A stretch of DNA of 64,000 nucleotides, taken from positions 1-64,000 of the forward strand of contig NZ_JACAAX010000026.1 in the NCBI RefSeq assembly GCF_013377085.1, written 5' to 3'. The notes beneath the pieces were generated by a model. The model had not been told where the DNA came from and made no database searches. It was given only the letters and a program-made list of their open reading frames with translations. This document shows positions 58,765 through 60,925 of the stretch, piece after piece (position 1 is the stretch's first letter; each line of letters starts with the position of its first letter). This stretch comes from Rhodoplanes sp. GTDB lineage: Bacteria; Pseudomonadota; Alphaproteobacteria; Rhizobiales; Xanthobacteraceae. The position numbers and the translations under genes are program-made.

Positions 58765-60042
58765 TTGCGCGGGTGGATGGCCGTCGTCCTGGTCCTCACC
58801 GGCCTTGCGGCCGCGGCGCCGGCCGTCGCCGACACCCGCGTCGCTCTGGTGGTCGGCAACGGCGCCTATCGGTCCATCTCGCCGCTCGACAATCCGGTCA
58901 ACGACGCCCGCCTGATGGCGCAGACGCTGCGCTCGCTCGGCTTCACGCTGGTCGGCGGGGCGGCGCAGCTCGATCTCGACAAGAGCGCGCTCGATGCCGC
59001 CGTGCAGGCCTTCGGGACTGCCCTGCAGGGCGCCGATGTCGGCCTGTTCTATTATGCGGGGCACGGCGTGCAGGTGCGCGGCGCCAACTATCTGGTGCCG
59101 GTCGGGGCGAACCCGGTGCGCGAGGCCGACATCGACTTCCAGATGCTCGACACCGCCCTGGTGCTGCGCCAGATGGAGGCGGCCGGCACGCGGCTCAATC
59201 TCGTCATCCTCGACGCCTGCCGCAACAACCCGTTCGGCGGCCGCGGCCTGCGTGCGACCGCCGGCGGCCTCGCCCAGATGCAGGCGCCGGAAGGCACCCT
59301 GATCTCGTTCGCCACCCAGCCCGGCAATGTCGCGCTCGACGGGCAGAGCGGCAACAGCCCCTACACGGCGGCGCTCGCCCAGACGATCCGCCGCGCCGGC
59401 CTCGACATCTTCCAGACCTTCAACGAGGTCGGACTGGCGGTGAAACGCTCGACCGCCGGCGCCCAGCAGCCCTGGGTGTCGTCCTCGCCGATCGCCGGCA
59501 CGTTCTACTTTTCCGGAACGCAGGCGGAGCCGCTTCCCTCGGCGCCGCAGGCGCCGCCCGTCGGGGCGGCCGGCAGCGACGCCGAGCGCGCCTGGGCCGT
59601 CACCAAGGACACCACCAGCATCGCCGTGCTGGAGGACTTCGTCCGTCAGTTCGGCCCGACGCCCTACGGCAGCATGGCGCGGGCCCGCCTGGAGGAGCTG
59701 CGGCGAGAACGCCCGCCGGTCGCGCCCGAGCCGCGGCAGCCGCAACCCCCGCCGCCGCCGGTCGTCGCCACGCTGCCACCGGTGCCGCCGAGCTTCGACT
59801 GCGCCACCGATCGTGGCATCGTCGAGCAGGCGATCTGCCGCAGCGATCGCCTCTCCCGGCTCGATCGTAATCTCGATGCACTCTACACGGTGGTGCGCGG
59901 CCGGCTGCGTCCCGACCAGCAGATCGTCCTGCGCGACGAGCAGCGCGCCTGGCTGAAGCAGCGCGCCGCCTGTGGCGACGGCGAGCCCTGCCTGATCGCC
60001 GTCTACGAGTCGCGCATCGCGCAGCTCCAGGCCTGGCGGTGA
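58765..60042 (+). CDS. Exported caspase-like peptidase (C14) fused to an LprI-type lysozyme-inhibitor domain
   Basis: 425 residues. Signal peptide, then a caspase-fold domain (about 24-250): TRVALVVGNGAYRSISPLDNP, His100 in FYYAGHGVQV and Cys152 in VILDACRNNPF form the dyad, followed by SYTAAL-like SPYTAALAQTI. A linker with proline runs (QPQPPPPPVV) leads to a C-terminal DUF1311/LprI domain (about 345-425) with four Cys (FDCATDRGIVEQAICRSDRL, RAACGDGEPC). The TTG at 58765 has GGGAGGGG upstream and adds an Arg to the signal peptide; the ATG at 58777 is the alternative. The amidase gene follows after four bases. Confidence 0.87.
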   Translation: MRGWMAVVLVLTGLAAAAPAVADTRVALVVGNGAYRSISPLDNPVNDARLMAQTLRSLGFTLVGGAAQLDLDKSALDAAVQAFGTALQGADVGLFYYAGHGVQVRGANYLVPVGANPVREADIDFQMLDTALVLRQMEAAGTRLNLVILDACRNNPFGGRGLRATAGGLAQMQAPEGTLISFATQPGNVALDGQSGNSPYTAALAQTIRRAGLDIFQTFNEVGLAVKRSTAGAQQPWVSSSPIAGTFYFSGTQAEPLPSAPQAPPVGAAGSDAERAWAVTKDTTSIAVLEDFVRQFGPTPYGSMARARLEELRRERPPVAPEPRQPQPPPPPVVATLPPVPPSFDCATDRGIVEQAICRSDRLSRLDRNLDALYTVVRGRLRPDQQIVLRDEQRAWLKQRAACGDGEPCLIAVYESRIAQLQAWR

Positions 60043-60046
60043 CGGG

Positions 60047-60838
60047 GTGACGAAATTTCTTCGGGACTGGCGCTACCCCTTTGTCGCTGCCGTGCTGGCG
60101 GTGGCGTTCGGCGGGGCGTCGTTTGCGGCCGACGATCCTGTGCCGAACGCTCCGGCCCCCGCCTGCAAGCCCGAAAGCTTCCGCGTGATGCTCGATGTCG
60201 GCCACACGGTCGACCAGCCGGGCGCCACCAGCGCGCGCGGCGTCGCCGAGCACGTCTTCAATCTGCGGTTGGCGAAGCGCATCGAGCGGGCGCTGCGCGA
60301 CGGCGGATTTGTCCGCACCAGGCTTTTGGTCGTGCGGGGCAGCGGTCGCAAGCAGCTCCTCGCCCGGGCCAAGGCGGCGAACGCCGAAAAACCCGATCTG
60401 CTGCTGTCGATCCATCACGACGACGTGCAGTCGCGCTACCACGCGCAGTGGCGGTTCGAGGGCCGGGAGCGGATCTACAGCGACCGCTTCGCCGGCTGGT
60501 CGCTGTTCGTGTCGCAACAGAACCGGCAGTTTGACGCGAGCTTGGCGTTCGCCAAGACGCTGGGTGCAGCGCTGCGCGCGAAGAATCTGCCCTTCACCAT
60601 GCACCACGCCGAGGCGATCCCGGGCGAAGGACGCGAGGTGCTCGACCGCGACGCCGGCGTGTTCCGCTACGACGCCCTGATCGTGCTGAAGGACAGTGAC
60701 GTGCCGGCCGTGCTCCTGGAAGCCGGCGTCATCGTCAACCGCGCCGAGGAGATTTTGCTGGCGACGCCCGCGCGGCAGGACGTCGTCGCGGCCGCGGTCT
60801 TGTCCGCCGTGCAGGGCTTTTGCGCGGAGCGGAAGTGA
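60047..60838 (+). CDS. Exported N-acetylmuramoyl-L-alanine amidase (Amidase_3)
   Basis: 263-residue zinc amidase that cuts the peptide from the glycan in peptidoglycan. Signal peptide ending ASFAAD; zinc ligands H53 in LDVGHTVDQPGA, E68 in GVAEHVFNLRLA and H123 in LLLSIHHDDV; the catalytic Glu is in VLLEAGVIVNRAEE. The GTG at 60047 starts four bases after the caspase-like gene stop, so the two are almost surely coupled. An insert with SDRFAGWSLFVSQQNRQ after the second His is typical of a subgroup of unspecified role. Confidence 0.88.
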   Translation: MTKFLRDWRYPFVAAVLAVAFGGASFAADDPVPNAPAPACKPESFRVMLDVGHTVDQPGATSARGVAEHVFNLRLAKRIERALRDGGFVRTRLLVVRGSGRKQLLARAKAANAEKPDLLLSIHHDDVQSRYHAQWRFEGRERIYSDRFAGWSLFVSQQNRQFDASLAFAKTLGAALRAKNLPFTMHHAEAIPGEGREVLDRDAGVFRYDALIVLKDSDVPAVLLEAGVIVNRAEEILLATPARQDVVAAAVLSAVQGFCAERK

Positions 60839-60925
60839 CGTAGGGCGCAATGAGCGGAGCGAATTGCGCCGGCTTTCTACGAGACGGTTTTTCGGCGCAA
60901 TTCGCTCCGCTCATTGCGCCCTACG
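60839..60925. repeat. Perfect 32-bp inverted repeat between amidase and cydB
   Basis: The arms 60839-60870 and 60894-60925 are exact reverse complements over 32 bases (CGTAGGGCGCAATGAGCGGA and on), with a 23-base loop that ends in GTTTTTC. It fills the tail-to-tail gap and would form a very stable two-way terminator. Elements of this kind (GCGCAATGAGCGGAGCGAAT) occur as dispersed repeats in related genomes as far as I recall. Confidence 0.85.

Follow-up and report, generated by a model that had tools for sequence, protein, structure and literature searches.

A caspase gene, mostly fused to LprI, next to a peptidoglycan amidase in eight alphaproteobacterial families points to possible protease control of own-wall cutting

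Introduction

To our knowledge, the substrates of most bacterial caspase relatives are unknown. The locus described here raises the question of why a gene for an exported caspase-like protease that is fused to an LprI domain lies four nucleotides upstream of a gene for an exported cell wall amidase, and whether the one protein acts on the other. We addressed this by comparing the locus in the window, by which we mean the whole stretch of 64,000 nucleotides of Rhodoplanes sp. DNA that was analysed, with its relatives in other genomes. Caspase–amidase combinations as such have been reported, namely four sequences in which a caspase is fused to Amidase_2 and one Geobacter operon that includes an amidase domain; both were linked to cell death (PMC3501461). 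The window has a different, Amidase_3/LprI arrangement. In the open-access literature, with subscription papers mostly outside the scope of the search, no description of a module of caspase, LprI and amidase was found. Caspase genes, most of them with an LprI tail, stand next to the amidase in eight alphaproteobacterial families, which points to a caspase-like protease that controls the cutting of the cell's own wall. A pairing with one wall amidase that is conserved and has repeatedly formed anew would provide such a caspase with a testable substrate and a place of action, the periplasm, and it also makes the amidase a likely partner for the poorly understood LprI domain.

The locus

A sequence-only reading had placed two open reading frames at this locus, and when the frames of the window were read again its coordinates were exact to the base. 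The features are as follows.

58765–60042, + strand: exported caspase–LprI fusion gene (ORF call; TTG start, TGA stop at 60042, 425 aa)
58834–59508, + strand: Peptidase_C14 (caspase p20-like) domain (PF00656), with His100 at 59062–59064 and Cys152 at 59218–59220
59578–59712, + strand: linker (DAERAWAV...LRRER), 40/44 identical to R. tepidamans, the domains on either side differing
59821–60027, + strand: LprI domain (PF07007)
60047–60838, + strand: exported Amidase_3 gene (ORF call; GTG start, 263 aa)
60203, 60248, 60413 and 60719, + strand: Amidase_3 residues H53, E68, H123 and E225, respectively; the subfamily marks are Q128 and H187
60839–60925, no strand assigned: perfect 33-nt inverted repeat with a 21-nt loop, starting at the first base past the amidase stop

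The SD-like GGGAGGGGGG lies immediately 5' of the TTG start, and the encoded protein is made up, in this order, of a signal peptide, the Peptidase_C14 domain, the linker, a proline-rich stretch and the LprI domain. Its signal peptide comprises residues 1–22 and ends in AAAAPAVA ahead of DT, and that of the amidase ends in GGASFA ahead of AD, both having been read by eye rather than with a prediction program. With this qualification and together with the Pfam matches given below, we agree with the earlier description of an exported caspase domain that is joined to LprI and followed, 4 nt (CGGG) later, by an exported amidase. Because the gap is this small, the two genes are probably expressed as one transcript; a promoter and terminator scan, which was uninformative, found no promoter-like site at the locus.

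The pair sits in a chromosome-like contig beside cydAB, and this flank is common to the window and R. tepidamans DSM 9987, which has the nearest named locus (G001 falls in the same genus). ABC transporter, thioredoxin-like and VTT/DedA-type genes at 53.6–58.8 kb of the window separate the caspase gene from a block that directly adjoins the caspase in R. tepidamans. At the other end, the 25-nt core of the inverted repeat has 38 occurrences in the genome when up to 2 mismatches are allowed, often in pairs that face each other, while the control gave 0. The repeat is a REP/REPIN-like element that is found genome-wide, and it is a boundary and not a component of the caspase–amidase system.

The caspase domain

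The Peptidase_C14 match covers residues 24–248 (E 1.2e-38; 133.5 bits against a cut-off of 21.4), and reading the codons directly bore out the previous assignment of an intact pair of His100 and Cys152. The same dyad is intact in all 12 amidase-linked caspases of the alignment described below. The acidic residues D47 and D150 are present as well and putatively stand at the places expected for an Arg/Lys preference, according to our own mapping of TbMC2 Asp95 and Asp211, which have been given as the acidic residues for this preference (PMC6426788). In its Peptidase_C14 domain, its HC dyad and these acidic residues the protein is thus like the orthocaspases and bacterial metacaspases, from which it differs by its export, its LprI tail and its recurrent amidase neighbour. 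A profile search found 22 PF00656 matches in the window's own genome, and the usual His-Cys dyad is absent at 4 of the 20 own-genome caspase loci that were read out (L005, L008, L019 and L020), as in pseudo-orthocaspases. The PADLOC defence model named caspase matched with an E value of 2.1e-13 at profile positions 5–130 of 453 only, and PADLOC had no match for the amidase. An AlphaFold model of the caspase protein, built from 2 sequences, was unusable (pLDDT 51). A phage origin was set aside, there being one weak phage match only.

The amidase and its subfamily

The second gene product matches Amidase_3 (PF01520; E 9.2e-26, 91.4 bits against a cut-off of 27), and H53, E68, H123 and E225, which we take to be the zinc ligands and the catalytic Glu, are the same in all 39 family members aligned. 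In the subfamily tree, 24 of the 39 members form a nested clade, named HYT for its motif, and the other 15 lie outside it; H187 is found in 15/15 of the latter and Q128 in 14/15, and both occur in 0/24 HYT amidases. In a rooted tree of 50 rows, from which 11 of the 24 HYT rows were left out, the window subfamily forms a clade separate from the AmiC-type amidases. The protein shares the zinc ligands and the catalytic Glu with Rv3717/Ami1 and AmiA/B/C, and an AlphaFold model based on 3 sequences (pLDDT 64) gave a low-confidence match to the Rv3717, AmiA and AmiC folds. It differs from these enzymes by its separate clade, by NCBIfam equivalog scores of 35–50 bits against AmiA/B/C cut-offs of 335–700, and by the absence of an AMIN or other targeting domain in the Pfam scan. 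No Arg or Lys clearly separated the caspase-linked from the HYT sets, and a zymogen reading of the amidase was set aside for want of a convincing marker of this kind in the linked members. Distant relatives (~35% identity; L170) lie on 58 Acinetobacter plasmid records and on plasmids of others.

Conservation of the linkage

In surveys of sampled genomes, which overlap with one another and in which only some first-look candidates were scored, members of the amidase family turned up in 15 of 100 genomes (own included; E value of 1.4e-41 or lower), in 26 of 397 from the order (more than 230 bits) and in 3 of 386 from the class (own, G028 and G555). A caspase gene is adjacent in 12 of the 15 non-HYT alphaproteobacterial amidases, in eight families (window, G001, G061, G091, G143, G192, G225, G282, G404, G264, G128 and G163), most of these adjacencies having been re-scanned with a 1.5-kb flank and gene starts in the relatives being stop-to-stop readings. 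The three others are G318, G555 and Bradyrhizobium Tv2a-2, in the last of which LprI is encoded by a gene of its own upstream. With 22 matches in the own genome, a caspase will at times lie next to a given gene by chance, at a low but not negligible frequency; from the caspase counts per genome, taken from 14 further genomes and the own one, ~0.05 caspase neighbours would be expected among the 15. In the HYT clade the number is 0/24, with three members carrying a caspase piece ~3–4 kb off, and beside AmiC-type amidases it is 0/46 within a 1.5-kb flank, where a caspase behind another gene could be missed. The rows are related by descent, so that Fisher values overstate the count of independent events. 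It is nevertheless well supported that the adjacency is not due to chance, and the doubt left by the earlier reading, that the pair might not be conserved, can be put aside.

The gene order is tandem in f1, f3, f31, f33, f42 and f49 and divergent in f28 and f35, and by eye, from gene lists in which not each flanking gene was annotated, the flanks are dissimilar except for the cydAB shared by the window and R. tepidamans. The fusion is also real and recurrent, as had been proposed from the window: nine of the 12 linked caspases have an LprI tail, with one copy in four and two copies in five (in L129 the Pfam score, 19.7, is just under the cut-off of 22), two have a bacterial SH3 tail (L124 by Pfam and its near-identical relative L126 by sequence), and one has no recognised tail.

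Exchange of caspase modules in place

The amidases of the window and R. tepidamans are orthologous, being 66% identical as proteins along their whole length and both flanked by cydAB-like genes, and the linkers are identical at 40/44 positions. The caspase domains are 50.5% identical (112/222), and the C-terminal parts are without likeness. Within each genome, the window caspase is 77.5% identical to its own paralog L016 (176/227), and the linked caspase of R. tepidamans is 90% identical to its paralog L012 (206/229). By these comparisons, modules were exchanged in place while the linker and the amidase stayed, a pattern suggestive of gene conversion or of recombination between paralogous caspase genes. 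Against L132 (L051), the caspase exchange region covers 58807–59708 of the window. A tree built from 36 caspase domains, of which 12 are linked, 19 are own paralogs and 5 are unlinked fusions, places the linked ones in about five groups, parts of this tree being unsure because of long branches, of which the program warned; judged by this tree, the linked caspases do not form a single lineage, and about five groups were placed beside the amidase.

The abundance of own-genome caspase domains and the visible exchange could also be explained by a single ancestral adjacency that was kept by chance and in which the caspase was swapped by gene conversion among paralogs. We regard this as highly improbable, since both tandem and divergent orders occur, the flanks look dissimilar by eye, the dyads are intact in 12/12 and caspases are absent in the control clades.

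The LprI domain and its likely partner

The LprI match covers residues 353–421 (PF07007; E 8.2e-8, 33 bits against a cut-off of 22); of the four Cys of the domain, three are invariant in 11/11 aligned domains, and the own genome has two LprI matches by profile search, one of which is the window locus. It had been proposed that this domain inhibits muramidases and that the pair controls wall cutting or answers an attack on the wall. The Pfam name of the family and the description of M. tuberculosis LprI as a lysozyme inhibitor (Sethi 2016, via citing papers) agree with a guard against foreign lysozyme, but the Salmonella LprI-domain protein ScwA is without a lysozyme phenotype and changes how much MltD, AmiC and other wall enzymes of the cell itself are present, and the authors of that study refer to a separate MliC domain in M. 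tuberculosis LprI (PMC7933661). The genomic partner in our case is an amidase, and we consider the lysozyme proposal very unlikely. Other work counts LprI proteins among the putative immunity partners of T6SS effectors that hydrolyse the wall (PMC8867033, PMC12135965). The window domain shares with all these proteins the profile match, the conserved cysteines, export and a link to a wall hydrolase, but it is fused to a protease and its partner is an Amidase_3 rather than a lysozyme or transglycosylase.

The immunity proposals would be consistent with an exported lytic kit, in which caspase and amidase are both effectors for self-lysis or for attack on neighbours and LprI is the immunity against the amidase, and so would the plasmid location of distant amidase relatives in Acinetobacter and others and the discussion of caspase–amidase combinations as death or lysis devices (PMC3501461). 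However, the amidase carries, as read by eye, a Sec-type signal of its own, the pair sits beside cydAB in a chromosome-like contig with a flank common to R. tepidamans, and an immunity protein fused to a protease would be unusual; we therefore judge a lytic kit to be unlikely.

A domain in a separate frame in relatives had been named as an outcome that would speak against the fusion. Separate LprI genes do exist, in Bradyrhizobium Tv2a-2, where the gene lies upstream of the amidase without a caspase, in Burkholderia and in others, but they do not have this effect, because the separate gene still adjoins the amidase and the link between the two is thereby strengthened. The amidase was found in 14 genomes of other proteobacterial classes, in none of which a caspase lies within up to 4 kb on each side. 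LprI is the immediate neighbour in G881, G896 (Pfam score under the cut-off) and G1064 and lies ~2 kb away in G929, that is three immediate neighbours against 0.007 expected, these four genomes having merely 1–4 LprI domains each. The amidase–LprI order is alike on a large replicon of Burkholderia stagnalis and absent at three other plasmid loci examined. Since LprI adjoins the amidase without a caspase in Bradyrhizobium and in other classes, it seems, from these neighbourhoods, to be the partner with the wider distribution, and the caspase to be an addition that is here confined to alphaproteobacteria.

A proposed model for the control of the amidase

We favour, at a probability of roughly 0.4, a two-gene periplasmic module that controls one particular peptidoglycan amidase, with LprI as the restraint and the caspase as the switch. 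The zinc N-acetylmuramoyl-L-alanine amidase would be the effector, and the LprI domain would restrain it by binding either the enzyme or, at the wall, its substrate, much as LprI-domain proteins are supposed to restrain other wall hydrolases. In Rhizobiales this partner is joined to an orthocaspase whose dyad is intact; on a signal, the orthocaspase would cut after Arg/Lys in its own linker, so that LprI is released and the amidase freed; alternatively, the cut after Arg/Lys might be made in the bound amidase. The sequences supply the fusion, the intact catalytic residues, the recurrent linkage with its controls, the caspase replacement and, by eye, the export signals. We infer the contact between LprI and amidase, the substrate, the trigger and which way the control runs, and a restraining contact is the most economical idea in view of the LprI–hydrolase precedents and the gene neighbourhoods. 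Sequence comparison found no interaction, cleavage site or autoinhibitory element in the pair. A broader version, to which we give somewhat less credence and which we think on balance doubtful, makes LprI a dedicated regulator of the amidase subfamily across Proteobacteria that in Rhizobiales was repeatedly armed with interchangeable orthocaspases, giving an envelope caspase pathway that cuts the cell's own peptidoglycan; if true, this would be a switch that leads from a bacterial caspase to the wall and has a defined substrate.

A favoured but not obligatory link

Among 20 stretches chosen from the matches listed, with open frames of at least 297 aa, caspase–LprI fusions with no amidase nearby were found in five genomes of one genus (L156, L158, L159, L160 and L166) and in G261 (L164). 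The amidase in turn stands without caspase or LprI in 24/24 HYT members, at L114 and L128 and in 10 of the 14 other-class genomes, and in R. tepidamans the caspase is beside the amidase and LprI is absent. Because unlinked fusions exist and the amidase often stands alone, the link of caspase–LprI to the amidase is favoured and not obligatory. These unlinked fusions, and the bacterial SH3 domain that takes the place of LprI in L124 and L126, would fit a wall-stress protease that LprI or SH3 directs to peptidoglycan and that cuts several proteins of the envelope, with the amidase merely co-regulated. This seems to us rather unlikely, though less so than a lytic kit, as the restriction to one amidase subfamily (12/15 against 0/24 and 0/46) and the LprI–amidase pairs without a caspase point to the amidase itself. 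The closest plasmid caspase domains, from Azospirillum, are not beside an amidase, and L155 and L165 carry five and six tandem LprI domains, respectively, without a caspase.
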